Below, one piece after another: positions 1 to 60,432 of a stretch of DNA of 64,000 nt; within the stretch, counting starts at the first letter, position 1, and each line of letters begins with the position of its first letter. The notes beneath the pieces are model-generated. The model was given only the letters and a program-made list of their open reading frames with translations. It did no database searches and was not told the DNA's origin. Source of the stretch: Parelaphostrongylus tenuis (lineage: Eukaryota > Nematoda > Chromadorea > Rhabditida > Metastrongylidae); contig JAHQIW010007276.1 in NCBI GenBank assembly GCA_019055375.1, positions 1 to 64,000 of the forward strand, given 5' to 3'. A program made the position numbers and the translations under genes.

Positions 1-59
1 TTTTGTTAAGATGGAAAGCATTTTATTCAGATATTGCTTACACTAACACACCGTGCAAG

Positions 60-335
60 CATATTTTAGGCCTTTCATGAAGCTTGTTAAGGGTACTTAT
101 ACAGCGCTATACACGTGCTTCAGGAGGTTCGCCTTTGCAACCTTGCAGCCTTGCGTCCTCACAGCTTTGTCAGTTGCACAGTACCCTCGTCTGCGCCAAT
201 CCCTCTCGAAGGCAAACCTCCTTGCATAGAGGAATCGTCGGCGAACACTTAACCCCGTGGGTAAAGTGGAAATTTGCTTCACCCACGAGTAATATATCAG
301 TGCATGTCCAGTGACTTGATCACCGGACATTGCAG
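60..335 (-). repeat. Single arm of hammerhead-bearing repeat, decayed
   Basis: Read on the minus strand this matches the arm repeated near 4.6, 15.4, 37.9 and 49.2 kb. It has a 5-prime part with CCTCTATGCAAGGAGG and GGGATTGG, then GTGCAACTGA, and at the inner end ACGTGTA followed by TAGCGC, which is the cleavage site and distal stem I strand of the hammerhead core. The core is damaged (CTGACAA in place of CTGANGA, GAAGC in place of GAAAC), and extra bases enlarge stem II. It is probably an inactive fossil. No coding sequence is supported here. Confidence 0.6.
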
Positions 336-379
336 TGAATAACAGTCATTTGCTCAAGGCTGGTTTTTTATCACAATAC

Positions 380-545
380 CTCTATTAGTCGACTATATTT
401 TTTTGAGACCTCGCTTAAAATTAACACATCCTAACAGCATATTCTGAGCCTTTCAAGAGGTCTGTTACGAAACTTATATAGTGCAATACACGTGTTTTGG
501 CCTTGAAAACCATGTTTCTGCCGCACCCGAGATTCTGAAAAATAC
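380..545 (-). repeat. Second fossil arm of hammerhead repeat
   Basis: This lies directly beside the previous arm in the same orientation. The minus strand keeps GGCC, AAAAC, ACGTGTA and TTGCAC, followed by the family tail (AACAGACC, then a CTTGAAAGGCTC-like segment). The half that should hold CTGATGA is lost. Confidence 0.5.
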
Positions 546-2402: not shown

Positions 2403-3059
2403 TCATAATGATGACGATGACGTTAATTTGAAAAAATAACTCCACCGATTTCATCTCATGGGCCTACAATATCAAGCAATCTTTTTCCACACTTGTAATA
2501 AATGGATCCCTGAAATTAATCTCATTTTATAAATATTTCTTCTATGGGTTGCAAAGATTTTCGAATACTTCTTTGAAATTTACTCTGCAGGGCCAGCTTC
2601 ACGTGGTAGGTTATCGGTGATAGACCTGTATTCACCGTTTTTTGTTCCCAGAGGTTCTATGTAACCGAAATAGCAGTGCGAGACAATCAGTAAGATTTAA
2701 TAGAGACAAAAGGGCAGTTCTGAATCCTTCGCTAGATATGGATTACTGCAACAATTTTGAAGTCTTTTGAATTACGTACTGAACAAATCGACATATGTGG
2801 TCTTGGTTGTCATGAAAACCACCTTATAGAAAACAAACAGCAACCTACTTGCTAAAGAATCAGTTCTTTATTCACTTCTATCTAACGACTAGAGATCTCC
2901 TTAGAGAGTGGTTTCTGCCATGAGCCTTGTGTCAAGGGTTTTCGTCTCGGAAAGATGTTTAGTGACGGCCATGTTCAATTAATATTGTAAAATTCGGTAG
3001 TTTCCTGTTAGACGGCGACCAGTAAATGTTCGACTTTGTTCGCTGGACAACAATTTTTC
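2403..3059. other. No gene recognised
   Basis: No exon, RNA gene or complete mobile element seen. Confidence 0.4.
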
Positions 3060-3845
3060 ATAAGAGTGTTAGTAATCATATGAAAGCTTAGATCTCTGGC
3101 TAGAGCCTTGTAAACGGTTTTTCAAAACAATCTCTTATAGCGCTGTAAAATCCGCAGTAATATTATGTTTCACCTGACCGCGCGATTTTTTCTTATCTTC
3201 CTTATATTTTTTTGCTGGAAAGGACTCCTCCCTTAGATTGCTCGTACTCTTTCGGTAGCACAGGCCTCGAAGAACTCAAGAGAAAGTGTGCTTTCCGGAT
3301 TTGTTCTTCTGATAGCGCTGTAGGGGAAAAAAATTGTGCTTCAAACCTCGCCGCGCAAAGCTCTTTCTTTAGACTACTATTAATCATTCGATAGCGTAAG
3401 CTACAATAACTTCGAAGCTGTGCTTATTTTTTTGGGAATGTCCGTCCCACTGCAGTTTAGCAAGGGAAATAAGATCAAGTTCACAGAATCATATTTGGCG
3501 AGCTTGTTTACCAGCTAACCTACGCATTGAGGGGTGGAAAGATCGATCGATGGCCTAAAGTGTTAGACAAAGTCATTCATTTGGGAGATTTTCCTCTAGA
3601 AATTTCAAAAAAACCGATTGACTTATATACTACAGAATATTCTCTACATGTTGATATGCTTTTCGTGCTTCCAGCGATTTAGTGATGGAAAGGAAGGCGC
3701 GCAGCGGGTGTGAAACATAATTTTATTTTGGATCTTACAGCGTTATAGAAAAAAGTTTTGGAAAATTGGCTACGTACGACTCTAGCTAGATATTTAAGTT
3801 TTCGAATGATTACTAACAGTCATATGAAAGATTCTTGTTCAGCAA
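3060..3845. repeat. Long palindromic element, family P2
   Basis: Two arms of about 120-150 bases are inverted copies of each other (about 3060-3185 and 3695-3845). They share GTTAGTAATCAT, AGCGCTGTAA and ATTATGTTTCAC. The centre holds a further inner arm with CTTTAGACTA and AATCATTCGATAGC. Related elements lie at 14.3-15.1, 43.3-44.2 and 52.8-53.5 kb, with pieces at 15.6-16.1 and 61.6-61.8 kb. No transposase is visible, so it looks like a non-autonomous foldback DNA element. Confidence 0.65.
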
Positions 3846-4284
3846 ATGGGGTCGAATGTTATTTTGTCGCCGTCTAACAAAAAGAAGCAAAATTTTTTTC
3901 TCCTCGTTCACCGAAGGTGTTAGTCTTACCTGTGACTGGCGTATTCTGATGAGAGAGCAGGAATTGACGTTGATCGTATACCGTGGATCGCTATGACATC
4001 TACCTCTCGTCTTAGTCATAACTTCAATTCAATCCTCTGAGATTTACAATAACTCAGATTGATGCTTTTCAGCTTTTTGCAGGCAATGGGAACACGAGCG
4101 GCGATGTCTAAGAGAAAGAGAGTATTTAGAAAACATGATATGAGCTTGGTGAACACTTCAGCCACTTGACGGTAGTCTTGTAGATAGTTCATCTTGCACC
4201 GCTTTACTTTTATCTATATTAAGCTGTAATTATACCTTTATTTTGAGTGTTTTATTAAGACCACGCTCAAATTTCAATAAAACT
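3846..4284. other. No gene recognised
   Basis: Spacer between two palindromic repeats, with no supported feature. Confidence 0.4.
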
Positions 4285-4338
4285 TTTCATTATTATTTGA
4301 GCCAACTTGTCATGTGGTCTGGTAAGGGCTCTTGTACA

Positions 4339-4380
4339 CCCCGATGCACGTCTTTCGTCCTTACAGACTCGTGAGTCGGG
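4339..4380 (-). ncRNA. Hammerhead ribozyme, mutated copy
   Basis: This is the mirror copy of the intact ribozyme in the right arm. Stem II (GTCT-GTAA-GGAC) and stem I (CCCGA with TCGGG) are preserved. The core reads CTCACGA instead of CTGACGA, GAAAC has become GAAAG, and the site is GCA, so loss of activity is expected. Confidence 0.6.
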
Positions 4381-4602
4381 CAGAACCCGATGTCTTTCGA
4401 TCTTGTTTATTAGTCAGTTCTCGCGGGAACCCTACTCTCCCAAAATACCAGCCAAAGAGCAATCGAGTGTACAACACTCTGTGTTAGGTAAAAACTTCAC
4501 TTGACATAGAGTGTAAAACGTTCGTCATCGATAACTCTTTGTAAGGAGATTAACTCTCGAAAGAAGTGACTAATAAAAAAGATCGAAAGACGACGGGTTC
4601 TG

Positions 4603-4645
4603 CCCGACTGACGAGTCTGTAAGGACGAAACACGTGTATCGGGTT
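4603..4645 (+). ncRNA. Minimal type I hammerhead ribozyme
   Basis: All conserved parts are present in order: stem I 5-prime strand GCCCGA (4603-4608), CTGACGA (4609-4615), stem II GTCT-GTAA-GGAC closed by a GNRA tetraloop (4616-4627), GAAAC (4628-4632), ACGTG, then TA with the predicted cut after A4639, and stem I 3-prime strand TCGGGT (4640-4645), which pairs fully with GCCCGA (one G-U). Stem III is very short (A-U, C-G around ACGT). Known family behaviour: such short-stem-III type I hammerheads occur in Penelope-like elements and retrozymes and may cut best as dimers. Activity here is inferred, not shown. Confidence 0.85.
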
Positions 4646-4886
4646 GTTTAAGAGCCCTTACCAGGCCACATGACAAGTTGGCTCAAATAATAATGGAAGG
4701 ATCGATTAAGCTGTAATTTTCAAAAAGTAAGTTATTTCATATACCGGTTGTCCCTTTGTATGGAGTACGCTCATATTTGTTTTACTGCCATCAATTCGTC
4801 TGTCATTTGATACTATTTTCACGATGCTCTATTTGGATCGCTTTGTATTATGACTTGTGTCTTATAGGTATTCATATAATTTTCAG

Positions 4887-13800: not shown

Positions 13801-16800
13801 CACTGGCTGATGTAGGTTTGAATTTTCTCCTAACACAATTTTTATCTACTTTCTGAGCCACACCTGATAAAAATGACAGGTCTCGATTTCGAAAGCAATT
13901 TCGACAATGTTGTCATAGCAAGAAGCTAAAATTTTTTCGGCTACTTCCAACATGCAGCAACAAAAAGTCTGTCAATGATTTCCGTAGAGATACCTCCGTA
14001 TGGAATCGATTCTAATCCTTTTACGACCTGACTCAAATTCGCGTAGCCGTTTTTCCGGGCCACACTTAATTTCCAGCCAATGCAATTTTTTCATAATTTT
14101 GCATCTGACTGTTTTTACAGACCTCCCTCAAAAAATATTTAATTTTATAACACATCTTGAGCCTATCATGAGGTCTAATATGGCACTTATGCAGTACTAG
14201 ACAAGTGAATACTGATATGTTAGGCGAGAGATAAAAAACCGATCGCTTTCGGTGGACAAAATTTCATAAGATGTCATTCGAAAGCCTAAATATGCGGATA
14301 GAGCCGTTCGTGGCTCTTTTTTGGGAAAGATTTGTCATGAAGCTAAAACGTTTAAGATTCAGAATAAAATTATTTTCCGCATGCACCACTTGCCTTTTTT
14401 TCTTTCGCTTCTAAATAGGTCAACAAAACAATTTTTTTGGACTACTAGTAATTTTTCGACAGCACCACTCTAGGAAATCCAATGATGTGTTTGCTACTTG
14501 GAAAGGCTTTTTTAGTGGCGTTGAACAGAAATAATACATTTGTGTTTCACATACACGTTCTTCTCGCAAGACGAAGCTCTTTCTTAGACTATTAGTAATC
14601 ATTCGACGTAAGATTTAACTACTCCAACGTTCTGCTTATTTTGTGGAAAGACTGTTTTTCTGCAGTGCAGGAGGAATATAAGATTGATTCATATAAACGG
14701 ACAAGGGTTTTTGGACTACTCAAGAGCTGCAGGGTGACGAGGCAGGGGGTTGCCGCTATCATCGATCGATCACGCTCACACGGGTAACATGTGGAAAGCG
14801 ATTTTTGTTATTTGATAAGGAGTTTTTTCTCCTCTTTGAAAGAAACTCCTGATTAAACGAATGACTGTCATACTGCAAGATTTCCTGTGTGCTTTTCGTT
14901 CTCACCACGGATTATACACGTGAAAATGAAAGTGCGTGGTGAGTATGAAACATAATTTTATTTTGAATAATACAGCGCTGTGACAGGCTTTTTGAGGAAA
15001 TCAGCGCATACCGCAGTAGTCAGTGATTTAAACTTTTGAATAATTACTAACACCCTTATGAAAAAGTCTTGTTCAGCGAAAGGGATCGGTTATTCATTAA
15101 GTACCAGTACGTGTTTCGGCATTACAGCCTTATCAGTAGCACGGTGCCAATCTGTTCAACCGATTCCTTACAGAGTGATAGACCCCCTACATATTAAGAA
15201 AATGGACAGTTGGATGCAAATGTATGCATTATTTTACCACCCATGAGCGATCGACTGTTGGTCACTGCAGGGTGGGGATGTTTATCACCTGACGTGAGCT
15301 AATCTTTAATTCGACGTTGATTCCTTTATATACAGGGGGTTTATCAACCTGCAAGGAATGGCTAAATCGAAAGGTACCGTGCTTCTTATGGCAATGTAAT
15401 GCCGAAAGAGGTGTCTAGCACTGTTCAAGTGCCATAACAGGCAATCGTTCAGATATGTGAAAATAAATAATAATTTCTCGATAATTAGAAAGACGGGAGA
15501 AAGAAATGCAAGCAACACAGAATTTTCGCTTCTCCTGTCCATGGGTATAAAATATATTACACTATTAAATATGTGGTACCATGACTTATGCAAGTACAAT
15601 AATATTGAAGCTTGAAATTTTAGAATACCGTTTTCGGAAAAAGTGGATGTCTTTGCTAAACTAGGATTCTCCTTAGACTATTAGTGATTATGCGAAAGCA
15701 TAAATTACTATAATTCTAAATCTATTCTTAATCTTTGAAAAGGTGTTCTTACACTACTGTAGCGAGGAACGTGTGTTTCACACGCGTCCAGCGTTATCGC
15801 GCAAAATTTCGTTACTTTTTTGGCAAACTTTCACTCTGCCCTCGTACAGCTTTTCAGGTTTTTTCGACTGGAATCCCAGAATAACTTCGCTCTATCGTTC
15901 TAAAGCTTAGATATTTCTCCATTTTACATTGCCAAATAAGTCCGTTCCTGAGCCTAAGCCTAAATACAAGCACGAAAAACTTTTGAACGTGAGAGGGAAA
16001 CTTGTGGTATCGCCGTTTAATGGTTAGTGATTGCTTAGGGAAAGAGCTCAATCCAGCAAAATATGAACACGATAGCGCACGTCTCATGTGGAACAAAAAT
16101 TCATCTACTCCTACAGCGTTGCAAAGAGGCCATTTTGAAAAACAGATGCATTTTTGGATTCGCAATGATTTTAGCTTTCGAATGGCTTGAGGGTCTCTCT
16201 GACAACAGAATTGTACCAAATTTTGTAACTTGTGCTAGTCTTTTTCAGTATTTTTCATACTTGTACACATGCATGGTAGCCACGCTATACCATCTTACCA
16301 TCGTAAAAATTGAAATAATTATCGATTACCACTTGTCTTCCTCGTCTCGTTCTTTGAACTAGCTCGCAGGACAGATTCTGAATATTTTCTTTGATGATTT
16401 AGCTAACATCACGAGATGTCGCTTTAAATGCTCTTAATCCTTGGTTTTTATTGACATTTTGTGTATTTATAATTACAGAGTAGAAAATTCTCCGTCAAAC
16501 GCTCAACACAACATCTTTGTTCTACAAACTTTCGATTGATTAGGAAAACCTTGGAAAAAAGGCTGCGCGCAGAAATAAACCATCAAAAAGCATGCGCATA
16601 AAAAAAACATAACATGCTGGGGTTTGGTTTGGACTGAACAGATAATATGTTACTGTGTATGTTAGTGTGATAGAAATTTTGACACTCGCTTCTTGAAACC
16701 AAGTCTGCGAACTCCTGCCATAGCAGAAACACGAGATTACTCAGATTGCGCTTGTCAGCTGATGCGAAGTCTATCGGTTTTACCTTCTATGACATCCGAG

Positions 16801-19800: not shown

Positions 19801-22800
19801 TAACTGAAATTTTGGCAATTTCAATGACGTAACTGATTTTTCAAAAAGACTCCTCATTGCAATGTAGCAGCCAAAAGAAGATCAGGTCTTACAGATTTGG
19901 ATCATTCTGATTCAAACACTTAAGAAAAACGCATTTTCCGATTCATTTTGAACCTTGAGCAGTTATTTATTGGCTTGAGTCTCAAAAATTTTGAAAATCC
20001 GCTTAATCTTTGGAATGGCGTTTCTATTGCGCTGCAAGAGCCACAAGAAAATTGTGTTTCACACTTAAGCATTTCTTGCTTCACAAGGATTTTCCTTCAA
20101 TTTCAATAATCATTCGATAACTCAAACTTTGAAAACTGCAACCAATTCCTTAATTTTGAAAAAGTCTGCTTATCGCGCTGAATTGAGTCTCGAACCCGGC
20201 GCGCATTCTTTGCTTTGGTTGCAGATGGGATCCATCGCGCGGTGCGAGTTGAAGAAGGCTTCTGAAGTATTAAACTACACCAAGATTCTTGTGATTTGAA
20301 CTATTGAAAGCTACCAAAACTCTTGAAAAATCAGGAAACGCGTTTTTTTCAAGGGGCCGGAAGACGGTGTGTATAACACAGGGGCAGTAAAATGAGTCAT
20401 AAACATGAGTGGAATATGGATAAATATCAATAAGAGAGCATAAAATTGTCCAATATTAGTGCGAAATGCAACCTTTTCGTAGGTATCTGGTTTCTTCCTT
20501 CATAATGTGGCGTTTTAGAAAAAGGATTGGCATTGATTCCGGGTTGCAGCGATGAAGCGATAGTCATACAGAGTATAAGTGCATTTGTAGAGCGTTTCCA
20601 CTTATAAGACATCAGAACAGGGTCTTCTCTACAACTTCAAAGAAGTCCCAACTTGTGAAGTCTCTTATGTTGAAAAGTTTTTTCAAATTATCGCTGAAAT
20701 CCAAGAAATTTCAATATGCAGTGTCATTTTTGACGAAAAGTTCGCTTTCATGATTGTTTTGGCATCTGGCTGCTAAATATAATCTCATTGAAGTCTCATC
20801 TATCATATTTTCTTCTTACTGACGATTAAACTTGTATTAGTGATGATAAAAATGTCAATATCAATGAGAAACTACCACATTGTCATTGTAACGACGTGCA
20901 CTCACCGACCGCCGCGCAGAAAATCAACGCGGAACCTAAGCGCTCAACAATTCATTACAATCTGATAAGGCAATAACATATTTTGAGCTGCTAGGTCTAG
21001 TGGTATACAAGCGCCTGTTCCGTCCTTATTGGGACTCATCAGTCCACACTCCCTTGATTCAGCCGATCCCCTGAGATTAAACAATTCTCTATAGAGGAAT
21101 CGGCGCCGGTTAAAAATCAACCCAAGTCAGACGATGATGTTACCTGACATTTTGGTGACAGCTTGATACATGTTATATCCTTATCAGGTTATATCATTTT
21201 GAGCGGGTCTGTAAAAAAGTGGTCGATAGAAGAGTTATGAACCTATGTACATTCAAAAATTACCATAGTTGCTTTGTCATTTAGATTTCGGTCCATAACG
21301 AAGCAGTATTTTCGAAAGGCTGATGGTGTATTGCTGTTATTCGATGTAACATCGGAGCAAAGTTTCCTAAACGTCAGAAACTGGATCGAATCAGTACGGT
21401 TAGGTGTTGATGAGTCGACGATCATGGCATTGGTCGGCAACAAGGTTGATTGAGCAGTCAATTTTTCGAACAATTTGTTTAATATCATTTTCAATCAACT
21501 ATTTTGGGATCTACTTTGAAATTAATATATTCTGACAATATATTTCAAGCCTTTCATTAGGTCTGTTATGGCATCTATAAAATGCTGTACATGTGTTTCG
21601 GCCTTTCAGCCTCATCAGTGGCATGGCTTCTTTCGGCTCACTCAGTTCTTCGGGAATTAACACCTACAATTAGAGTAAGAGACGCCGAACTAACAACAAC
21701 GTACGGTGAAATAATTACCGTGGTGTCCTTTCAAAATGATCGATTGTGGATTGTCATTTTCTTAGTTTGCGGCTAATACGACAGCATATACCTCAGTGAA
21801 ACCTCATAAGAGGTTTGAATTTGCTGTTAGGATGTATTTGTTGATTTCTCGGAATATGACCGGATTTTACATGCAGCGCATATCGCATACTTCATCATAT
21901 CAGTTCGTTGTGCCTCGTCGCATCCATCATCTGAATGTCATCACCGCATTCGCAAAATTTCTTTATCATCACTGCTTTTTAGCAGTAGTATGGTGTTAAC
22001 ATATACATATACACACAGGGTTACACATGCATAGGATTCAACACCCGCCTGATGTTGAATGTTTTGCATAACATTTAACATTCTTAAATGTCATCGTAAT
22101 TATTGCGGTTGCAGTTTCAGGACTATTCTTCTTTCTGAATGTCGTTATATTCTGATTCTTTCTGTAACCCTTGGCTTAACCTACTGAAGCATTCTCTGGA
22201 ATTAAGCACCGAAGTGGTTTATAGTCGGGCCTGTATTGCAGAGAGCTTATTCACGACAGATTTGTGTCACTTTATCGACTTTGATTGAACGGCAGACGTA
22301 ATTGACTCGATGTGTGATGAATTTGATGCCCATATACGTGATACGCTCTGGATTTCTGACTGAAGAAATCCCATCATTCCTAGATAGTTCAACGAGGATA
22401 AGACACATGTCGACGAGGAGCGAGCTGAAAATAGTTCTGAGCTGACAAGAGGCATGAGTATTTTCCAAAGTGATACGCTATAAAGTTATATCAGAGAAGT
22501 TAGTATGATGGGAATCCCTAAGTTGATAACTACTTTCTTTAGTACCTGGATGACCTCTCTTTACAAACATGAATTCATGGCGCTCTAGCGCAATTTTTTG
22601 TCGATTGCTAATTTGGAAGTTTAACAAGTTTCTTCCTCTCCAAAGAATTTTGAAATTAAAAGCGTTTGTCATTTTACAATAACCATAACTTGTCAGCTAA
22701 TGGTTATATTGGTGTTATGTACCAATAATGCTGTGACTGACTCACCTTCTCTGGTCTTGCTTTCACATTCCTTTTCAGCGTGGATGACTATTCCGCGAGA

Positions 22801-25800
22801 TGGACCCGTTTCAGTACGTTGCCGTCCGAGAACCACGACGGCGCCCCTCTCTCATAGTCGTGATGAGATGAGATGATAAGCCATCCCCTTATACTCAATT
22901 TTATGTGCAAAAAGACCGAAGTCCTAGACATCACGAAAGACGTTTTTTGACTTCGTCTCCTTTCGTTCAGCACGTTCTCTGCTCTATTAGTGCCACAACA
23001 CAAAGTCAATATCTTGCACTCATTGAATTCTGAACAATTTCCACCTATCAAAATATCCATTTTTGAAAATGACTAATATCATTCACACTTTCAAATCAAT
23101 TTCGAACTTTCTCGCAGGTCGATCTATTCGGCAACGATTCAACTCGCAACGCCGTGTTCAGAGCGGGAAAGAAGCTTGCTGAAGTAAGCTTTCCTTAGTT
23201 TTTTCTTAAAAACGTTTTTCATATTACTTCACTTCATGCTCTTATTTGAGAACAGTTTCTATTTCCGACGTTAACGGGATGCAATATCATTATTTGATAT
23301 AATTAAGCATTTCCACAGATCTCCCTCTTTGAGGGATCCTGCCCGGTTAGTCGCGAGGGCACGTAGCACTTCCCCAGGTGGTGGTTAGGGGAATAAATGC
23401 GAACCAAAAGCGACCGTGTGCTTTCCAGAGACGCAAGTGAATTCAGGAAATGAGCTTCTTGCTTCCGCAGCGCCGACTTGACAAAACTCTATTTCTACGA
23501 GTCAAGTCGGCCAGAAGCCTGCAATCGAGCGGCTGGGAAGCAAATGGGAGGCGGTTAGGAGTCGCCTCTAACAAATAAGCTCCTCTTGCTCCTCCGAGAG
23601 AGACTGGTAAGCTACTCGTGAGAACTCGGCCCCCACGTTCATAGCTCAGCAAGCTATACGTTGGGTATTGAAATGCTAAAAACAGCAACAAATATGGGCC
23701 TCATTACCCTAACCTCGGAAGAGCCCCCAGAACGGCAGCGCTGGGTAGGACGAGTACGGAGAGGCTGCTAAAATCTCAGGGCGAAACTAGGCTGCCAAGA
23801 TCGAAACGGACTAATATGACGATCTGTACCTACAATATTAGAACACTTGCTCACAAATCCGCTGTAGAAGATCTATTAATTCAAGCAAGAAAAATAAGGT
23901 ACGACGTCATTGGCCTGGCTGAGGCGAGAAGAGGTCATCCTTTTTACGCTGTTTATGACACCGGAGAAGAATTGTTCCTTGGAACATGAGATAGCAGAGG
24001 TATCGGCGGCGTTGGCGTCCTCGTCAAATCAAATTTGACCGTGGACATCGATTCTTTGAACAACTAACAATCCATATTGGGCGATTACGGTTGAAACGAT
24101 GTGGTTCAATGCCGACCTTGACCATATTCGTTGCTTACGTACCAACATCAAGCTATGACGGAGACGAAGTCGGAGCGTTCTATGGAACTCGAAAAATTCT
24201 TCAAGGTCATTGTCGGAGATTTCAACGGGAATATAGGACCTAGGAAAACGTCTGAAGAACGTCACATTGGGACTCACGGATTAGAAAGGAATGAACGACG
24301 TGAGAGGCTATCTGAGTTTCTCATGACGACTCAAACCATCCATGCTAGCTAACAATTCCAAAAGCCTCACTCTCAGCGATGGACGTGGGAGTCTCCCAAT
24401 GGAGAATACCATAACGAAGTAGACTAAATCTTAGTAAATCGAAGCTTTTGCCTGACCGATGTCGCTGTTGTTCCTAAGTTCTACACGGAATCGGACCATC
24501 GCCTCCTTCGCGTTCCGTTTTTTTTTTCGTTCTTCCGTTTTTCGCGAAAAGGAGGGAAAGCCGCTAAATTCAAACAACGGAGTCTCAGAACTACCATAAA
24601 CTTGGATGTATTCAAATCATTAATCGCCTCCTGGGAAGATACCGTTGTCGTCCACATCGATGAAGAATACTATCGGCTCGTTGAATATCTTCACGTTAGC
24701 ACTGTAAAAGGCGAGAGTCCTAAAGTCACGAAGAGACGCTTGTCTCCGCAGACACTTGAGTTGATACGTCAGCGTGGAATCGCACGAGCTACAACCAACC
24801 GAAACCTTACGTCCGATCTTGCGAAGCGCTGCAGAGAAGCGATAAAAGAAGACCTTGAATAGAGACGAGAGCAGTTATGGCAGAAGCTGCAGAAGCTGTG
24901 AAGAGCATTCGCAAAGTCCAGCGAGCCTTTGCCAATTATAAGACCAAGATGATTGCACTCCGATGCCCTGACGATGCACTTATAGCTTCCAGAAGGGCTA
25001 TGGAAAAAATCATCCACCAGTACTACTCGGACCTGTTCGCTAGCCACGTCCTCTTGCCGTCACATAAATTGAAAGAGGATGAATATGTCTTTCCACCGGT
25101 CCTTCCTTCCGAAATCCGACATGCTATATCGTCGGTGAAGAACACAACAACACACGGTCCACACAGGATTAGACCAGAGCATCTGAACAACCTATCGCCA
25201 ATTCTCATCAATACCCTGGCTCGGCTCTTCACACTCTACCTGTCAGAATGCAAGGTTCCTATTCAATGGAAAACCAGCAAGAGCGTCTTGTTGTTCAAGA
25301 CGGGGTCTCCCTTACGACATAGGCAGCTAAGGCCCAATGTGCCTGCTGTCCGTTGTCTATAAAACTCTTCACTCGAGTCATCCTGAACAGGACTGACAGA
25401 ACACTGGACGAAGGACAGCAATGCGAACAAGCAGGGTTCCGAGAAGGATTTAGTACTCTTCAGCACATCCACACGATAACAAGACTCATTGAAGTTTCAC
25501 GAGAGTTCTAACAACCAAATTGTCTCACTTTCATCGATCTGAAAAATGCCTTCGATCCAGTGGAAACAGAAGCGGTTGTAGAGACTCTGGATAACCACGG
25601 CGTCCATACTCGGTACATAATGATCTTTCGTGAGCTGTATAAAGATTTCACGACCATAGTATCTCCATTCCACAAGAATATCACCATCGACATAGAAGAG
25701 GGGTTCGACTAAGCGATACAATTTCGCCAAAATTATTCACTGCCACCCTCCAAAATGTCATGCGAACATTAGAATGGGACAATATGGGAGTGAAAATCAA

Positions 25801-28800
25801 CGGTCGGCAATCAAGCCATCTTTGCTTTGTTGATGACATCGTCCTCATAACACCAAGCATCAGCCAAGGGGAACGAATGCTGACCGATTTCGACAACGTC
25901 AATGGAAAGATTGGTCTTCAACCAAATCTAACAAAAACGATGTTTATGAGGAACGGATGGGTTTTGAATGCCCCATTCACACTCAACGGAACGAAAATCT
26001 CCGAATGCTGCAGTTACGTCTATCTAGGTCGAAATCAACATGATGAACGACCTAGCTCCAGAGTTGAGCAGGAGGAAACGAGCGGCTTGGGGAACGTTTA
26101 AGAGTATCGAAGATGTAGTGAAGAGCATAAAGAACATCCGACTCCGGGCCCACCTTTTTGACTCGACAATTATCCCTGCTCTAACGTATGCAGCACAAAT
26201 CTGGTCGCTAAGTAAGCAGGATGAAAGATCACTTGCCATCATTGAACGCGCAGTCGAAAAGTCGATGCCAGGAGTATCCCGTATCTTGCAAATGAGAGAG
26301 ATGATCCGAAGTTCCGACCTACGTCAACGATCGAAAATCAGAGACACCGTTCTACACGCCAAGATATCGACAATAAAGTGGGCCGGACACGTGATGCGCT
26401 TCAACGACAACCGATGGACGAGAGCCGTTACCGACTGGATTCCTCGGGACACCACCGTTCTTCACGAAAAGTGTAGAAGAAAGATATGATGCACAACAAA
26501 TTCCTAGAGAGAGGAGACCCACTGGGCTACTCTTGCACGCGATAGGGAAAAATGGACGTGTTGCTGGTACCCGCTCGAGTCACTCGGCGATCAACGGGAC
26601 GGCAGGTGATACAGGTGAGCTAACCATTTAGAATGGGAATACACAGTCAACTAATTCTGTCGTAGTTTTCTTCATTTTGCAAATGAATGTTTTCGATTTT
26701 CCAGCTAACTGACTGCTAAAATGGAAAAAATGGATTCAGGCTACATTAGAGCATCCGATATCAATGAATTTATACCAGTTCCTTAGTGTAATTGGATTTG
26801 TTCCTAGTACTATAAATATGTATACATATTTACATATATATACGTATATATGAACATATGCATATATATAAATATAAATATATAAAGGATAAAGGATAAA
26901 GCTCTCGGCGTTGATCAATCTCTGAGGGATGCGCCATGCATTCAACTTCGATTTCTAACTTCGTTTGAGGTGATTGAATGCATATCTGGCCTTTACAATG
27001 ACTCGCGGTGGCCTCCCGTGAACCGAGTCAGTGCTGCTTATCCTCCCAGACAAGTCTGAGACCTGTCTGGTACCAATTTACCGACCCCGGAGGGATGGAT
27101 GGCTTGGTGAGCCATGAGCGCGAGTTCGAACCGTTGACCTCGTGTGCGACGCAGAACACCTCTAACCACTGCGTCACATGCGCTCATAAATATATACGTA
27201 CACATATATGATTATATCCTATTCTAACAGCACAGTTCTTATGGAGATACACTAGAATACTATGCTAGCTTGAAATAGTGTTTAGGAGTTCAACATGCCT
27301 TTCTATGAAACCAGCGCCTATACAGGATATGGGATCGATCATTGTATGAGATCAATAGCGGAGTAAGTTATCTTCAACATTTCCTTTCACGTTCTCATAC
27401 CATTTATTCACAATGCTGACGTTTTGGTGAATTTCACGTTCTTCAGTGCTTTTTATTCTGTCAAATAAATATAGCCACTAACCTTTCTCACAGAGAAGTC
27501 TGTGACCAGTTATTCGCGAGCCCACGTAGCGCATCTCTACGTAGCGAAGAGTGGGTTTGAATGTCGATGAAAAGCTACTTTTGAAGCTCCAGTTTGGTGT
27601 ATATTTTTGTATTCTACAAATCACAGTAGCCAAGAACCGCGTTCATGTCAGTGAGAAAAACAATGGGAGACGGGTAAGAGTCACCTTCATCAAATAAGCT
27701 TTTTCTATTTCACTCTAGAGCAGACTGGCAAAATACCCGTGAATATCGCATCTCCACGTTCAAGGTTAAACAAACTACATGTAGATTTCGAAAGTCAAAC
27801 GCAGTAAAATAAATCCCAAGACCGACTGTTTATCAAGCTCGGCATGTTTCAGTAATTCTTATTTTTCCTTCTTCTTGAGCGAGGCACGAGGTGTTAAGTC
27901 CAAACATTATTCACACAATCAAACAACTAACGTTTCGGTAGGTCGCCTTTCTCAGAGCGTGGAAAGGTCAAAGTTGTCCAAAATTCAATCAGTCAAACAC
28001 TTCCATCACTTTTTTAGAGAAATTTGTCATACCTAGATTTCGATCGCATCAAGCGCAAAGTCAAGCTCAAACATACTCACCGCTTTTATTATACGTCTTC
28101 AACTGAATGAACAGGTGAAGAACAATGGAACGGTAATCACATAGGCCAGTAATGCACTATACCCATCAAAACAACAGTCTAATATACTGACTCATTTCAC
28201 GGGTGATTATGAGGCATTCTTCGCTGCGGTTCATAGCTGGATTGGTCGTGCTTATCCAGAACGCCTCAAGTATCTTCCGCGTTGATGTGTTTTGCTCCTG
28301 TTTAAGGATGGTGACCTCTACATCAAATCCTCCGGCATGCTTTTGGGCTCTATGTATACCTAGCGGGGTGTTTTTTCTAGTATGGCGCATGTCAGTTAGG
28401 TGTTCATCTATGTGAACATAGAGCGGCCTACCCGTTTCGCCAATATACTCATCGTCGCACGATTTGCAAGAGATTAGCTACACTGTGCCCAGGATCATGC
28501 AATCACCGTCTCTGCCGTAAGGGCACATTCGGCAGTTTTTTGTTGTGCCGAGACGGTCATAGAAACGATTACGAACTAACTGGCACCTAAGAGTATTTGG
28601 TGCTATTTCTGTTATTGACACCAGATGCTCTAAACCTGCCCTCCAAACAGCTTTGACCTTTCCAGGCTCTGACGAACGCGACCTGCTGAAACGTTAGCTG
28701 TTTGAGTGTGTGAATAAAGTTTGGATTTAACACCTCGTACCTCGCTAAAGGAGCAGTAGAATAAGTGGACCCATTTTCCTGACCTGGAAAATCTCCGATA

Positions 28801-31186
28801 TTTTGGGTAAGATAGGTGTGGAGAAATAGCTTGTATCTCAGGCCTATTTCAGGTAGGTTAAGTTTACAAGGACCCAAGGTCTGTATTTATAACGCACATA
28901 CACATGCATACGGCTTCTCTATAGAGCATCTGACCATGTTGACAAGAAGGATAAGGCGCGACGTTATGGGCTTAGCTGGGACGAGAGAACGCCTTTCATT
29001 TCACGCCGCCTATGGCACCAAAAAACTATTACTGAAAATATGCGATAGTCGAGAAGCCGGTGGCATAAATCTTTTTGGTCGCATAAGTTTGGATACGGAA
29101 TTTGATCAATTCGGATAATTAGCAATCCCAATAAAACGCTTAAGTTTGAAGTGATGGAAATCAACACTGGAAGTTGGAATCGCGATGTTTTATGAGAGCG
29201 TAGAAGAGTTGCGCAGTGAAACCATGCATTTTTTTTGAAAGCTGATTTTTTACCATGAGAGCTTTTGATGCGAAACTCATATCCAGAAGAACATTTGAAG
29301 ATCGTCACAGTGGAGCTCACGACTTAGAATGGAAAGAGCACAGACTGAGAAGCTATCAGAGTTTATCATAGCAATTAAACCATGCATGGTAATTAACAGT
29401 CACCACTGAACATCCCCAATGGAGAGTACTTTACGAATAGGCTACATCAGAAAATCGATGTTTTACCTAACTGTTGTCGCTAGTGTCGAGGAATTTTGCA
29501 CAGGGGTCTGACCATCACCTCCTTCACACCACATGCCATGTTTTGCGGGAACTAGAGAAAGCAGTTAGGTTCAGATAGAGCTATTTCAATACTGTCCTGA
29601 ACTGCAATTTATTCATGTCACTATCTGGCATCTTTAAAAGATGCGCTTATTGGCAACATTAATGAGAAGTAGGCTGTCAAACGTTCTCATGTCGTAGCAA
29701 TGATGGCTGAGAGTCCGAAAGTCATCAAGAGACTCCAGTAACACTCGTGTTGATAGGCCAAAAATGCATAAGAGATAGGTATCCGCTAATTGAATTGGCA
29801 AAATTATAAAGAAGCGATAAAAAAAAGATTTCAATGAGATAAAAGCAGCAGTTTTTGAGGCATTCGAAACTTCGTTTCTTACGAACACAGCTTTTTGAGT
29901 TTTAGTTGAAGACCAGTCTTTCCATAAGTTTTTTCGAAATTGGTCAACATGCATTCCACTTGAGGGATATTTAATAGCATTCTTCCGGAAAGGGAAAATA
30001 GCTCTTAATTAAGTGACGCTGTGCAGAGCGATTTCAATTACCTCCTCGAAAAAACGATCGAGAGCTGTGCGATTTTCCTCACTTATCTTGACATTTTTCC
30101 CCTACTCAAAAAAATTTCTAGGTGTTTTCACAAGACTTGTAAAGGTGACTTTGCTCTATCATCTTATTGGTAGAATTTCTTTTTGTTTCGGCATGCCAAA
30201 TAAACCCGCTACAGAGTTCAAACGGTGAGCTAACTAGTTCGAGTGCGGAAGTATGATTTTTTGCTTCAACAGAACTCTACAAAGACCGTTTTAAAAACTA
30301 GTCATAGCATAAAAGTTGTTCTAAATTCGAGCTTTCGAATGCGTAATCTGTATCCTTGTATATCATTAAATTGAGTGTTTATAGCTCTAGTGCCAAACTT
30401 TATGAGAAGACCCAGTAGTTGTTGTAGTGGTGACAATTATGAGTGGCATTTCGGCGACTTCATATTTTTCAAAATCGAAACGTACGTTGATTTGATTATT
30501 CGTATGATTCGATAGATTTTGATGCCTTCCGTAATCCTCCTAGGTGAGTCACAAGTTCAGATAGAGAAAAAGCGTCGTGTTTTGCGTAACAGAGACTCAT
30601 TTGTTCTCCCGCTTTATCTTTGCAATTTTTGTGTTTTGCCAAAACGCTTCAAAAGTTTCACGCGTTGATGTTTTTGACTCGTACGTTAATATTGTCACAT
30701 TCAATGCATATTTATCATCTTTAGCTCTTTCTGCTCCATGCGTACTTAGAAATGTACTTTGTTTATCGTCAACCTGCTGATCCTCGTATACCTGGTATGA
30801 TATTGTGTATATTTTGCCTGAATCCACACAATCCCTCTCTTCCGTTAGAGCAGATTACATAGTTTTCTGAGTTATGCACACGATTACAGAGGCGGTTAAA
30901 GACCAATTGACGCTGTAATATAGGTGAGCGCTAAGGATTTGCTACAGAACTTCCTATCACTTTTTTGTGTACCCCTCTATATCGCCACTTGGCCTCGTTC
31001 CATAGAAGGGTAGCTTGAAAGGAGTTTAGAAGGAGTGGTGGCAAAACAGGCGTCAGTAGTGCAATCAGTTTAAGGCACGCGCCCCGAACAGGCTATTTCT
31101 CATGACGTCAAGCCTTTGCACAGCACTCAACACCATTGGGTGTACCTGATGATCATTTTTTAAGCCACGCATGTGGTCTGTTATCC

Positions 31187-31252
<66 letters not shown>

Positions 31253-32108
31253 TGAAACAGGTCTCATGCATGGCTCAAAAAATGATTATCAGGCATATTG
31301 AAATTTGAGTGTGGTCTTGAGAAAACACTCGAAACGAAGGGTATGATATATTAATTAATGAGCATATTTGTAACATACCACAGCTAGAAAGCGGTAAGAA
31401 AAACAATTGTTGAAAGGAATTTAGTCTAGGTTCGAAATATTGTTCAGGGCAAAACCCTACCTTTTCTTCCTTTTAATTGGAGGCTTAAGAATAATGTATT
31501 ACAAAGCCGCTTGATACGTTAATATGGAACGAGGTAACATTAATGACTTAAATACATGCAAGCTGTTCAATCGCGCGCATCACAAGTGATCTAGGAACAT
31601 TTTGACACCCGGTAGATTGGCTGGTACGAAGTTCAGCAACTAAGTGAGAATGAGGTTCAAAGTCGGTCTGTCTGTGCAATTTATAATAGGTTTAACTTTA
31701 TGTGTTGCTAGATCGCTCGCCGCAAGATCATCATCAGAAGTTAACTTATGTCTTCTAATGAGTAAGGTTAGGATATGATTTATCATTTCTAAGTTCAATA
31801 ATTTCTGAAGCTTCCAAACCCACTCAAGTACACTCATGGTTCAGTTGTGAGCAAGCTATAAGTCCTAAACTGTCAGGTGGTGTATAAAAAATGTGATTGA
31901 TGGTGTGGCACACGTGAAAAATCGTTTTGAATGCCAAGAGGCAGTGCTCAAAGAGCATCATATACCTTTTTGTAGGAAGTAAAAATTTTTTGGATTTTAC
32001 ATCTGAGTTTTCAGACGTTTGCAAAAACGCGAAGAAGAACAGCTACATGATGCATTGAAATTAGAAATGGAACCGACAACTAAAAAACGAAGCTGGTGTT
32101 GCCTTTGA
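4887..32108 (+). CDS. RASEF/Rab45-type large Rab GTPase, 3' part
   Basis: A small GTPase that by family should act in membrane trafficking, anchored by C-terminal lipids. Exons with consistent phases: 4887-5014, (candidate 10940-11089), 13465-13540, 13728-13811, 17732-17811, 18261-18386, 21285-21444, 23118-23183, 27286-27362 and 32015-32108. The first four encode a polar Ser/Pro/Gln-rich linker. The rest give a complete G domain: GDSAVGKT (G1), ATIGVDF (G2), WDTAGQE (G3), GNKVD (G4), YETSA (G5), then KKRSWCCL and a stop. RADGVLLL-like and SFLNVRNW segments resemble RASEF/Rab45 rather than ordinary Rabs. The start lies left of the window, where EF-hands and coiled coil are expected. Introns reach 2.9-8.5 kb and hold RTE, Penelope, mariner and palindromic repeats. 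The G-domain exons are firm. The linker exons rest on phase and composition. The C. elegans counterpart could be rsef-1 or its paralogue, so no symbol is given. Confidence 0.85.
5398..5530. repeat. Two inverted tRNA-derived SINE (family 2) pieces
   Basis: From 5402 the antisense tRNA-like sequence reads CTGGGATTCGAACCCATA (box B complement), followed by the box A complement near 5455-5475. A second, oppositely oriented piece at about 5496-5530 carries GGGTTTAAATCCCAGCTGAC. A head-on pair of the same family occurs at 55.8-56.0 kb. This is not a functional tRNA because acceptor and anticodon stems do not form. Confidence 0.55.
5531..7502. other. Intronic repeats, no exon recognised
   Basis: Within the long Rab intron. 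Contains an AT-rich stretch with short open frames (6610-6906) and a degenerate GTA/ATAG-type microsatellite (about 7200-7255). A segment near 7425-7465 (AGGCTCTGGAGGCGGCGATT, then CCAAAACATTAG) resembles the Penelope 3-prime end motif seen at 28.65, 41.74 and 63.0 kb. No protein exon found. Confidence 0.4.
7507..8074 (+). mobile_element. Internally deleted mariner transposon
   Basis: Terminal inverted repeats start GGTTGAGGAAAAAGTTCCTC at 7507 and end at 8074 with the complement (GTGTTGAGGAATTTTTTCCC). Both sides carry the TA target duplication (7505-7506 and 8075-8076). Between them are mariner transposase pieces in shifted frames: a FHQDN segment (about 7710), FRSKEHF (about 7840) and [11 protein letters not shown] (about 7940-7970), which is the conserved C-terminal region. 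The N-terminal HTH and first catalytic part are missing, so the copy is dead. It lies in a Rab intron. Confidence 0.8.
8085..9940. other. Intronic DNA, nothing recognised
   Basis: No exon with splice sites, RNA gene or identifiable transposon. Short open frames only. Confidence 0.4.
9953..10260 (+). repeat. Arm of TATA-containing palindromic repeat (family P3)
   Basis: The segment about 10060-10260 aligns with 38990-39180. It shares ATCAACAACTNTCCTGT, a TATAAAAGG or TATAAGAG box, GCTCC-TCGGAGA and a GAAGGCGAA stretch. The 100-residue frame that spans it has no recognisable domain and is probably fortuitous. Confidence 0.45.
10261..10939. other. Intronic DNA with a SINE 1 fragment
   Basis: About 10706-10745 (GAATGCATATCTGGC and GCAGTGACCCACC) is a short minus-strand fragment of SINE family 1. 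No exon seen in the rest. Confidence 0.35.
10940..11089 (+). CDS. Candidate linker exon of the Rab45-like gene
   Basis: The 150 bases are open, have coding-like codon use and encode a Ser/Thr/Pro/Gln-rich stretch (for example [12 protein letters not shown] and [12 protein letters not shown]). The phase is symmetrical: the exon enters with one base and leaves with two, matching the exon ending at 5014 and the one beginning at 13465, so it could be included or skipped without a frame change. The donor CAT/GTAACC is acceptable. The acceptor CCTAAG is weak for a nematode. Disordered linkers of this sort are expected in the RASEF family. Alternative: a chance open frame. Confidence 0.35.
11765..11880 (+). 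repeat. Truncated SINE family 1 head
   Basis: GAGCGCATCTAGCCCAGTGG at 11769 matches the tRNA-like box A head of SINE family 1, after which the sequence departs from the family. The rest of this intron between 11090 and 12150 shows nothing recognisable. Confidence 0.4.
12150..12725 (+). mobile_element. Mariner element, transposase middle deleted
   Basis: From 12305 an open frame encodes the mariner HTH region: [19 protein letters not shown], then [13 protein letters not shown] and DPDLEDKPR, followed by a stop in place of the usual Gly-Arg-Pro. After a short gap, 12612-12647 encodes [10 protein letters not shown] and a stop, like the extreme C-terminus of mariner transposases (Asp-Gly-x-Tyr-Phe). 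The whole catalytic DDE region is missing. GGTTGGAAAGAAAGTTCTGA at about 12150 and the inverted TCTGAACAACC at about 12704-12714 are the likely ends. Confidence 0.65.
14140..14235 (-). repeat. Hammerhead-family arm end, fossil
   Basis: On the minus strand the piece CACTTGTC then TAGTAC, followed by TGCATAAGTGCCATATTAGACC and a CATGATAGG-type tail, corresponds to the cleavage site and downstream flank of the hammerhead repeats. The core 5-prime half is missing. Confidence 0.45.
14265..15070. repeat. Long palindromic element, family P2
   Basis: The outer arms at about 14265-14390 and 14930-15065 are inverted copies (AAGCCTAAATATGC against its complement region, and AATAAAATTATTTT against AATTTTATTTTGAATAAT). 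The core has CTTAGACTATTAGTAATCAT and an ATCGATCGATCAC motif at about 14760. Same family as 3060-3845. It abuts the hammerhead palindrome that follows. Located in the intron between 13811 and 17732. Confidence 0.6.
15071..15450. repeat. Palindrome with two decayed hammerheads
   Basis: The left arm (about 15095-15200) and right arm (about 15310-15450) are inverted versions of the same repeat. Left, on the minus strand at 15098-15144: GTGCTA, CTGATAA, GGCT-GTAA-TGCC, GAAAC. Right, on the plus strand at 15379-15421: GTGCTT, CTTATGG, a 12-base stem II region, GAAAG, a GTC site and TAGCAC. Each has one or more changes in invariant core positions, so neither should cleave. Sits in a Rab intron. Confidence 0.6.
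15451..17731. other. Intronic repeats, no exon certain
   Basis: 15615-16080 is a further degenerate P2-type repeat (TTAGACTATTAGTGATTATG near 15674). 17040-17140 contains minus-strand fragments of SINE family 1 (AACCATTGACAACC and GTGTGTCGCAGAGCCTCTA). No G-domain or linker exon is confirmed here. Confidence 0.4.
18387..21284. other. Rab intron filled with degenerate repeats
   Basis: About 19197-19260 is the 3-prime end of a SINE family 1 copy in plus orientation (GCATGGCGCATACC, then GAGAGCTTTATCCTTCC). About 19570-20360 consists of diverged repeat units (TCGATAGCT/CGATAACT, AAAAAGNCTNCT, then GCNGCNANAGNNGCCA), loosely tandem and related to the P2 palindromes. No exon seen. Confidence 0.4.
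21535..21680 (-). repeat. Single arm of hammerhead repeat
   Basis: Minus-strand copy of the arm, from the GGAAT-like inner region to the conserved tail (CCATAACAGACCTAATGAAA). It encloses the ribozyme at 21582-21624. No opposite arm is evident nearby. Lies in the Rab intron between the exons ending 21444 and starting 23118. Confidence 0.65.
21582..21624 (-). ncRNA. Type I hammerhead ribozyme, core intact
   Basis: Read on the minus strand: ATGCCA, CTGATGA, stem II GGCT-GAAA-GGCC with a perfect GNRA loop, GAAAC, ACATG, TA (cleavage after A), then CAGCAT. All invariant core bases are present. Stem I has four good pairs (ATGC with GCAT) but mismatches at the two positions next to the core, which should weaken it. 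It is antisense to the Rab gene, so it would not cut that pre-mRNA. Confidence 0.7.
22500..23060. other. Intronic sequence, unassigned
   Basis: A relatively GC-rich block (about 22780-22860) has open frames on both strands but no recognised domain. It may be a repeat. No exon call is made. Confidence 0.25.
23320..26620 (+). mobile_element. RTE-type non-LTR retrotransposon, near full length, broken
   Basis: Inserted in the intron between the Rab G4 and G5 exons, same strand. A 5-prime leader (23320-23815) is followed by an AP-endonuclease-like domain starting [16 protein letters not shown] (23817), with [21 protein letters not shown] and ESDHRLLR. Next comes a linker with [11 protein letters not shown] and [10 protein letters not shown], and a reverse transcriptase (about 24877-26100) with [30 protein letters not shown] and the catalytic FVDDIVLI (a FxDD box). 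The C-terminal segment has [16 protein letters not shown] and [18 protein letters not shown]. Several stops and frameshifts interrupt it (for example at about 23988, 24067, 24351, 24860, 25511 and 25711), so it is dead. Wording and order match RTE elements abundant in hookworms. Confidence 0.9.
26806..26885. repeat. AT/ACATATAT microsatellite
   Basis: Alternating TATATA and ACATAT tract at the tail of the adjacent SINE 1 copy, possibly grown from its AT-rich 3-prime end. Confidence 0.7.
26886..27190 (-). repeat. tRNA-derived SINE, family 1, well preserved
   Basis: The minus strand starts GAGCGCATGTGACGCAGTGG (box A) with TTAGAGGTGTTCTGCGTCGC, then GGTTCGAACTCGCGCTCATG (box B). It runs through the conserved body to GCGCATCCCTCAGAG and ends AGAGCTTTATCC. 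This is the clearest copy for defining the family. It lies between the RTE element and the next Rab exon. Confidence 0.75.
27480..27800 (+). mobile_element. Degenerate RTE 5' leader fragment
   Basis: Aligns with the leader of the RTE element at 23330-23690: TTCGCGAGCCCACGTAGCGC against GTCGCGAGGGCACGTAGCAC, ACCTTCATCAAATAAGCT against CGCCTCTAACAAATAAGCT, then AGACTGGCAAAATACCCGTG against AGACTGGTAAGCTACTCGTG. No coding part remains. Confidence 0.6.
27890..28600 (-). mobile_element. Penelope-like element, GIY-YIG end, one stop
   Basis: On the minus strand a linker ([20 protein letters not shown]) leads into a GIY-YIG endonuclease: [53 protein letters not shown] and [16 protein letters not shown], then a stop at about 28166. 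An in-frame TAG (minus strand, 28478-28480) replaces the Tyr expected at the start of the motif. The 3-prime UTR continues to 27890 with ACCTTTCCACGCTCTGAG and GAAACGTTAG. The reverse transcriptase proper is missing. Such elements use RT plus GIY-YIG for retrotransposition. Located in the last Rab intron. Confidence 0.8.
28601..28869 (-). repeat. Penelope-type terminal sequence
   Basis: 28645-28730 contains, on the plus strand, CCTTTCCAGGCTCTGACGAA, CTGCTGAAACGTTAGC and GAATAAAG. This is the conserved 3-prime end motif of the Penelope-like copies, in the opposite orientation to the neighbouring GIY-YIG fragment, suggesting a second, inverted terminus. Confidence 0.45.
28870..29960 (+). mobile_element. 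Heavily decayed RTE copy
   Basis: Fragments match the endonuclease domain of the element at 23.3 kb: [16 protein letters not shown] (about 28945-28990), [14 protein letters not shown] (about 29040-29085), then GAAGATCGTCACAGTGGAGC near 29300 and CCCAATGGAGAGTACTTTAC near 29413. A later piece near 29700-29740 matches the linker. Many stops, no usable frame. Confidence 0.6.
29961..30555. other. Intronic DNA, nothing recognised
   Basis: No exon or recognisable element. Confidence 0.35.
30560..30790 (-). mobile_element. Penelope-like GIY-YIG C-terminal fragment
   Basis: Minus-strand translation has [37 protein letters not shown] and IKRENK. It aligns residue by residue with the C-terminal part of the GIY-YIG domain at 28.2 kb ([18 protein letters not shown]). 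The YIG motif and everything upstream are lost. Confidence 0.65.
31025..31095 (+). repeat. Fragment of SINE family 2
   Basis: GAGTGGTGGCAAAACAGGCG and GGCACGCGCCCCG match the head of the family 2 copy at 55.9 kb. Box B is absent. Confidence 0.4.
31140..31350. repeat. Palindrome arms around a TA/GA microsatellite
   Basis: About 31147-31185 (TGATCATTTTTTAAGCCACG, GTGGTCTGTT) and 31256-31300 (AACAGGTC, CATGGCTCAAAAAATGATTA) are inverted copies of the outer arms of the hammerhead palindromes at 4.3 and 48.8 kb. The ribozyme parts are gone. In their place is an uninterrupted (TA)n tract (about 31187-31228) followed by (GA)n (about 31229-31252). Confidence 0.65.
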
Positions 32109-36680: not shown

Positions 36681-37004
36681 AAACACACTACTGATAGTTC
36701 CTTATATTGCTCGTGATTGCTTCAACATTAATCATCATCGCTAGTAATCATTACAACTACTAAATATAAATTTGATGTTGACCGATTTTCCATTTAATCG
36801 CACCCAATAATTTCCTTTCTCCGCTAGAATATACTAGGTAAATAATTGCTATTCTATTCTCATTGGTACAACAAAATCTCAGGTAGCGTCAACACATGTT
36901 CACAGATTTCCAACAATATTATAGTCCAACACTTTCAATCAAGCATTTTAGACCTTCCTCAAAGTCCAATATAATCTGATAGAATTTTCCAAAATTTTCA
37001 GAGG

Positions 37005-37425
37005 TTTGGTATGACACCTCGAGTGCTAGACGTACGTTTTGGCTCTCACGCAAGTCTCATCAATAGACATGCCATTCAGCTGCTCGTCCCCCACTATCAC
37101 GAAGAATCGGCGCCGAAGAAGTTACTCTCGTGTCAGGTGAAAAAAGCCCCGACGTGGTGTTTTTTCCACAATGATTGACTGCCGATGATTCGAAACGCGG
37201 TCGCAGAATAGTCGAATGATAGTGTTGGTGTTTATATATACTGGCGGAGGCCGTGCCAAGCAGACGACAATTGGCACTCAATCACTCTGAAAGAATGCCA
37301 TGCTGGATAATGTTTTCATTTGACCCGGAGTGCAACTTCTTCGGCGCCGATTCCTTGTAATGGTAGACGACGAGTAGCCGAATGGCATGTGTTATTGATA
37401 AGACAATGAGACAACAGGCAACGGC
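37005..37425. repeat. Palindrome with vestigial hammerheads
   Basis: The inverted arms at about 37067-37140 and 37318-37392 share TCGGCGCCGAAGAAG and CTCGTC/GACGAG blocks. The outer minus-strand piece at about 37020-37065 has TTGATGA, AAAAC, a GTC site and TAGCAC. The outer plus-strand piece near 37395 has GTGTTATTGATAAG. Both are decayed hammerhead cores. The right arm is related to 63408-63480. Confidence 0.5.
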
Positions 37426-37990: not shown

Positions 37991-38189
37991 ATATGGTGAA
38001 AAATTATCACTACATCCTTTCCTTCTTATTCACTTAGATTCGATGAGCGCGACCATCTTCACATTTCATACGGCAGCAGGCCGCAGTTATTTGTTTTCCT
38101 ACTCAAAATTTCTAATATTCTAACTGCATTTTTCGCAGTGTTATGATGTTTCGTGTGCACCTAGGAAAGTTGAGTGGTGAGCAAAAGCA

Positions 38190-53460: not shown

Positions 53461-53739
53461 TAAGGGAAAAGAACCTACGATGACTACTAAATGTTCAGGT
53501 GAACATTTGTACTCACAAAACGATAGACCAAAGTCTCTTCTAAAGTTCTATGGTTGTCTCAAGTTCTAAAGTACACTGAAGACCGCACAATGGAAGAGAG
53601 CTTTTTCGTCACTCACAAGATATTGACAAGGTTCGAAGACATGGGGAGCCGAAGAAGATGATTATATAGAACTCTTGTAAGTTGGAGAAACACGAGAAAA
53701 ATGAGAATGCACCAAGCTAGTCAGATAAAGCATTCAGCG

Positions 53740-57754: not shown

Positions 57755-60432
<2,678 letters not shown>

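Follow-up and report, generated by a model that had tools for sequence, protein, structure and literature searches.

Hammerhead-bearing palindromes in a nematode contig read as Penelope-like element insertions with an inverted pLTR head-to-head with a direct one

The six palindromes in the 64-kb window (the whole stretch of Parelaphostrongylus tenuis DNA that was analysed) are read here, with a probability of about 0.85, as insertions of a Penelope-like element (PLE) of the canonical type—that is, one encoding a reverse transcriptase (RT) and a GIY-YIG endonuclease—that have mostly been reduced to the pLTR, with an inverted pLTR lying head-to-head with a direct pLTR. This identity is supported by arms that belong to one family, outward tails, the pairing of long and short ends, the lack of a common junction, a target-site duplication (TSD) at palindrome A, and endonuclease remnants beside palindromes C and E. 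The copies are old and decayed, and represent a known kind of mobile element, ordinary and well explained. Thus, ribozyme-bearing palindromes need no new element class, PLE integration itself leaving them behind.

An arm profile of 342 positions, built from 15 units, was searched against the whole window and matched 20 units at E<=4e-5 (Table 1). Twelve of these form the six palindromes, each consisting of a minus arm and then a plus arm with the tails outward (head-to-head), and the other eight (N1, N2, F14, G21, K21, H37, I63, and L62) lie outside. An earlier note on this DNA had proposed such a layout of minus arm, spacer, and plus arm at six places, and the profile located all six palindromes near them; that note mentioned neither the eight units outside the palindromes nor the remnants of PLE coding sequence in the window. 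Units not used in training were still matched, namely J_L (1.2e-21), J_R (6.2e-14), K21 (1.5e-9), L62 (1.1e-8), and E_L (3.7e-5), and leave-one-out analysis over ten trained copies recovered the units at E-values from 2e-3 (E_L) to 4e-39, with only the 45862-45930 part of C_L being recovered. Neither the reversed window nor five dinucleotide shuffles of it yielded a match to the profile at E<=1. The limits of the profile are partly set by where the training units were cut. Further copies came from a blastn search of the window with the arms as queries; the J copy (37005-37425) was not linked by blastn, yet was matched by the profile. An exact-pattern search of viral contigs and genome contigs gave no match.

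Table 1. Positions of arm units, hammerheads, target-site duplications, and PLE-type coding remnants in the window
Feature	Positions	Strand	Description	Evidence
A left arm	4231-4519	-	inverted pLTR, long tail	profile E 2.1e-44; leave-one-out 2.7e-21
A_L hammerhead	4339-4381	-	core broken	core table
A right arm	4444-4709	+	direct pLTR, short tail	profile E 1.6e-54
A_R hammerhead	4602-4644	+	core intact	Rfam RF00163, 30.1 bits
A left TSD copy	4218-4231		14 bp	exact 14-mer at both ends
A right TSD copy	4705-4718		14 bp	exact 14-mer at both ends
B left arm	15088-15200	-	truncated pLTR; hammerhead core broken	profile, leave-one-out, core table
B right arm	15206-15442	+	pLTR stops before tail; hammerhead core broken	profile, leave-one-out, core table
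C left arm	45826-46037	-	inverted pLTR, long tail; hammerhead 5' half deleted	profile E 3.5e-27
C right arm	46048-46301	+	direct pLTR, short tail; hammerhead without U16.1	profile E 3.3e-54
D left arm	48811-49114	-	inverted pLTR, long tail; hammerhead core broken	profile E 2.9e-69
D right arm	49052-49285	+	direct pLTR, short tail	profile E 5.8e-45; leave-one-out start 49117
D_R hammerhead	49176-49219	+	core intact	Rfam, 24.3 bits
E left arm remnant	31141-31183	-	short tail end	E 3.7e-5 (0.002 with E_R left out)
E right arm remnant	31256-31344	+	long tail	profile E 5.7e-17
J left arm	36929-37185	-	long tail; hammerhead decayed	untrained, E 1.2e-21
J right arm	37262-37403	+	decayed	untrained, E 6.2e-14
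N1	4-372	-	6 bp from N2, direct order; runs to window edge	profile
N2	379-507	-	truncated near hammerhead; continues straight into N1	profile
F14	14111-14207	-	truncated unit	profile, leave-one-out
K21	20942-21157	-	about 330 bp from G21, direct order; hammerhead core changed	
G21	21483-21763	-	hammerhead core intact	profile, leave-one-out, core table
H37	37735-38012	+	about 330 bp after J_R, same direction; core intact, stem II weak	
H37 hammerhead	37921-37963			Rfam, 26.0 bits
L62	62849-62926	-	truncated; about 340 bp from I63, tails outward	
I63	63270-63596	+	tail-like motif precedes at 63262	profile, leave-one-out
EN1	28169-28654	-	5'-truncated C-terminal part of a PLE-type ORF, GIY-YIG endonuclease included	tblastn
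EN2	46323-47120	+	5'-truncated Penelope-like ORF up to and including GIY-YIG; stops, frameshifts	tblastn, best 4e-52
EN2 3' tail	47455-47500	+	resembles hammerhead-arm tail	profile E 0.0018 on window
EN3	30558-30918	-	decayed PLE-type GIY-YIG fragment adjoining E	tblastn, 5.4e-6 and 4.6e-12

The outer ends of the units fall into two classes about 40 bp apart. Long ends (model positions 320-338) are present in nine of the 20 units (D_L, G21, I63, A_L, E_R, J_L, N2, C_L, and F14) and short ends (278-302) in seven (K21, D_R, A_R, L62, E_L, H37, and C_R), with three others (B_R, B_L, and J_R) ending earlier and N1 being cut by the window edge. Each of the four palindromes that could be assessed—A, C, D, and E—has one long and one short tail. 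The inner ends were placed in the left/right arms at model positions 67/43 in A, 133/22 in B, 25/13 in C, 26/90 in D, and 51/42 in J, these values being approximate, because the left- and right-arm matches run into each other at the centre of A and D and the values shift in leave-one-out analysis. No common inner junction across the palindromes was seen with the profile or in leave-one-out analysis. A fixed central spacer, noted by eye in A, B, D, H37, and N1, was rejected as a candidate, alignment and profile identifying it as the 5' part of the longer arm's unit.

A TSD was found at one palindrome. The 14-bp repeat at A brackets the whole palindrome and was reached in 0 of 300 shuffles, and with a TSD at A alone, an origin in a single event is directly shown once. 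No TSD was found at palindromes B, C, D, E, and J, where it was likewise sought. None of the repeats sought at G21, K21, H37, F14, and EN1 was convincing, and a 9-mer flank repeat at I63 (shuffle P 0.03) was not counted as a TSD.

With respect to coding sequence, three decayed bodies with GIY-YIG remnants (EN1, EN2, and EN3) are contained in the window and are read as remnants of a canonical PLE. Two window ORFs match Pfam GIY-YIG below the cutoff (17.8 and 18.3 vs. 22.6 bits). EN2 starts approximately 20 bp after the sense arm of palindrome C (C_R), and the link to Penelope pLTRs that the earlier note had drawn is upheld by PLE-type coding sequence adjoining both C and E. The 3' tail of EN2 aligns locally with the tail upstream of I63 and with that of C_L (0 of 500 shuffles); outside this tail, the 3' region of EN2 showed no match to the arm profile, and local alignment did not find the family tail in the 3' flanking sequence of EN1 or EN3. 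An autonomous partner of the pLTR family is therefore not proven, only EN2 among the three bodies bearing the tail. The 3' region of EN1 is repeated in inverted orientation at its other end (27863-27977 / 28647-28761), an architecture similar to that of the palindromes but without a hammerhead.

Queried by itself, the EN2 ORF retrieved no relative in a protein search. A two-sequence EN profile retrieved 23 relatives at E<=10, all of them at 1.3e-11 or better (best 1.6e-46), and those from Ancylostoma ceylanicum, Angiostrongylus cantonensis, Parelaphostrongylus tenuis, and Necator americanus—nematodes that we take to be strongylids—were matched at E-values from 5e-35 to 2e-27. A search started from one EN relative returned 138 proteins at E<=0.001, at least nine of which (among 120 of the 138) carry tags for RVT_1 as well as GIY-YIG; seven of these nine come from named nematodes, Haemonchus contortus being among the relatives. 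A domain scan detected both domains in all nine, with RVT_1 above the Pfam cutoff in four and below it in five, and GIY-YIG above the cutoff in all ten relatives scanned (the nine and one other). These nematode proteins, relatives of EN1 and EN2 that carry automatic names and some of which join RVT_1 and GIY-YIG, were compared with the window by protein only. When 17 of 131 relative proteins were used as tblastn queries against the window, only EN1, EN2, and EN3 were obtained, and no RT part of a PLE. A PDB sequence search gave no match below E 0.9, and a structure predicted for EN2 on the basis of two sequences had a mean pLDDT of 37.7 and was not used.

The anatomy of the palindromes resembles one already described for Penelope, in which the pLTRs are inverted and head-to-head, the inverted one being shorter, with an optional 31-bp tail on one inverted pLTR and TSDs of 8-10 bp; head-to-head was the commonest pLTR order observed, and self-priming was suggested as its cause (Arkhipova, Yushenova and Rodriguez, 2013; PMC3846280). 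The Adineta vaga Penelope elements (Pen2a_Av and others) are similar to the window copies in having a shorter inverted pLTR head-to-head with the direct one, an optional tail on one inverted pLTR, and a TSD around several inserts and none around others, and they also encode an RT plus GIY-YIG protein and include 5'-truncated copies with inverted pLTRs (PMC3846280). Compared by description, the window copies differ in mostly consisting of a pLTR pair without an ORF and, at A, in a TSD of 14 bp rather than 8-10 bp (PMC3846280); furthermore, unlike the window units, hammerheads go unmentioned in the available text of that article (0 occurrences).

Minimal type I hammerheads are known from PLE pLTRs (PMC7761336, PMC6155905), and the closest biochemical parallel is Poseidon of Anolis carolinensis (PAc). 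In the work of Frangieh et al. (2024; PMC11167929), the PLE protein was reported to cut and extend both target strands; reverse transcription began at two internal sites that lie next to each other, and this accounts for the tail. Like the window copies as they are read here, PAc has a hammerhead at the pLTR-ORF boundary and two adjacent start sites shortly inside the ORF that give an optional 30-40 bp tail; the PAc hammerhead is protein-dependent, and insertion in vitro can do without it, hammerhead mutants still inserting (PMC11167929). This comparison involves the biochemistry of one vertebrate element, with no palindromic products reported in the available text (PMC11167929). The window copies agree with this published picture in pLTR order, tails, and hammerhead. 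Among the matches listed, no open-access title or abstract describes hammerhead-bearing PLE palindromes in nematodes.

With regard to how the inverted pLTR arises, we lean towards extension of both target strands on one RNA, a mechanism drawn from the anatomy of the copies together with the published biochemistry. The endonuclease of the element would cut both target strands, and its RT, copying a single RNA, would extend each of them from one or the other of two neighbouring start sites located downstream of the hammerhead. Each cDNA would thereby begin with a tail at the flank, and the two 5'-truncated cDNAs would be joined in the middle. Such extension would result in outward tails, a choice of start site for each strand, variable 5' truncation—and hence no fixed junction—and arms copied from one template. 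The presence of the hammerhead would follow from its position within the pLTR, and, where intact, it would most likely act on sense transcripts only. A more specific and distinctly tentative suggestion is that each palindrome might record a single two-strand event in which the strands usually start at different internal sites, as a dimer with unlike halves might do; the pairing of one long with one short tail in all four assessable palindromes points in this direction.

The main competitor concerns the mechanism only. In it, the element is the same, and the inverted pLTR results from self-priming of the RT on an antisense template, as proposed for pLTR pairs in head-to-head order whose junctions are palindromic (PMC3846280). 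The central overlap of the arm matches in A and D is consistent with such priming, as is partial self-complementarity of the 5' part in N1 (shuffle P 0.003) and A_R (0.03); however, the other six of the eight units tested lack self-complementarity at the 5' end, and self-priming alone gives no account of outer tails at two alternative positions, which a choice of start site does provide. Self-priming is accordingly considered doubtful, though by no means negligible. As for two-strand extension from two start sites, the dense set of 20 units in 64 kb offers natural insertion products with which this in vitro activity can be checked, and such a check would help to settle PLE integration, left open by the 2024 paper (PMC11167929).

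The arms themselves, on the evidence of their sequences, derive from a type I hammerhead whose stem I covaries. In an alignment of nine hammerheads (leaving out N1, I63, K21, J, and units without part of the motif, and with A_L and A_R not being independent), both sides were changed in four of the six pairs of stem I, and its covariation score of 0.352, compared with 0.168 +/- 0.035 after shuffling, was reached in 0 of 500 shuffles; the number of pairs with a double change was reached in 18 of 500 and, for pair types, 66 of 500 shuffles reached the observed number. Pairing is poorer in stems II and III (72 and 56%). Rfam was searched at E<=5 over five stretches only (A, C, D, G21, and H37). 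Hammerhead_1 matched A_R (E 1.8e-5), H37, and D_R, none of the three reaching the 34-bit gathering score; A_L and G21 matched Hammerhead_3 only (23.1 and 19.5 bits; gathering score 48.5), and C gave no hammerhead match. At the gathering threshold, the whole window yielded only a tRNA. A MIR821 match over palindrome A (102 vs. 249 bits) was taken to reflect the long hairpin, not a microRNA. A loose hammerhead pattern was swamped by chance matches, and a strict one matched A_R alone in the window but gave 3 and 0 matches in two shuffled versions, its count therefore being no evidence.

Core positions follow the standard hammerhead numbering (U16.1, H17, and the core letters). An intact core was present in only four of the 18 units examined (A_R, D_R, G21, and H37). 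No palindrome has two intact cores among A, B, C, D, and J in the core table, and E is without a hammerhead, a (TA)n(GA)n microsatellite at about 31190-31253 occupying the site of both hammerhead regions in its sequence. Working ribozymes in both arms are thus not confirmed, and the trimming of an RNA at both element ends, as suggested in the earlier note, is without support in the window. These observations bear directly on whether the palindromes are a new non-autonomous foldback element moving as a fixed palindrome with two outward ribozymes, the class that the earlier note had put forward. In its favour are the similar layout of the six palindromes and the fact that in A, D, and J each arm is most similar to its partner. 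In addition to the missing second ribozyme, though, there is no common junction, the outer ends are asymmetric and differ between copies and arms, eight units of the same family lie outside palindromes, some of them in direct order or apart, and PLE-type bodies adjoin C and E in an anatomy already described for PLEs (PMC3846280). A foldback class is therefore regarded as very improbable.

Chance head-to-head insertion, in which separate pLTRs would have landed within or next to one another, is a further possibility to which we attach hardly any weight. Arm-to-arm comparison gives it some support, in that both arms of B, as well as C_R and E_R, are closer to other copies than to their partners, and C and E show a best match to the partner from one arm only (by one point for C_L). 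In A (a 153-bp inverted repeat, 88% complementary), D, and J, the two arms are mutual best matches, pointing to one event per palindrome. Moreover, all six close inverted pairs are tail-out, with the arms within 76 bp of each other or overlapping, and the single 14-bp TSD at A encloses both arms; the chance insertions that the earlier note had named as a refutation of its idea are thus not what is seen at A. With respect to pLTR order, the six inverted tail-out pairs are accompanied by two pairs in direct order, N1/N2 and K21/G21. The L62/I63 pair, which was left out of the palindrome count, is perhaps a seventh, decayed palindrome. A weak reverse-strand profile match (E 0.12) lies between its two units at 63168-63260.

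Metazoan non-LTR retrozymes, small non-coding tandem repeats of 150-300 bp with type I hammerheads for which PLEs are the likely helpers (PMC7761336), share with the window units the hammerhead type, a small non-coding unit (342 profile positions here), and the direct order seen in N1/N2, and yet are a highly unlikely identity, because retrozymes are described as tandem repeats producing circRNA ('inverted' being absent from the available text of PMC7229834), whereas the main form here is inverted, there are two classes of tail at the outer ends, and units are adjoined by parts of PLE-type ORFs. No tandem head-to-tail monomers bounded by hammerheads were found in the window, N2 being without the 5' half of the hammerhead and K21 and G21 lying about 330 bp apart.

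The other contents of the window are eukaryotic, comprising a reverse-transcriptase ORF with an RVT_1 match and HSP70-like ORFs. The decayed reverse-transcriptase ORFs at 23672-26486, with the RVT_1 match at 25643-26098, are by eye presumably RTE-like, and the gene at 58290-60429, which lies in pieces parted by probable introns, is by eye taken to be HSP70-like. Nested or short inverted repeats at 41480-41827 and 44986-45182 show no arm-profile match. By eye, a further inverted-repeat element (2989-3173 / 3710-3896) seems to have relatives near 14265, 15055, and 37610, of which one lies beside palindrome B. Finally, a dispersed repeat family with approximately 69-80% identity is represented at 26881-27186, 2108-2402, 55372-55582, 57916-58195, and 53724-53951.
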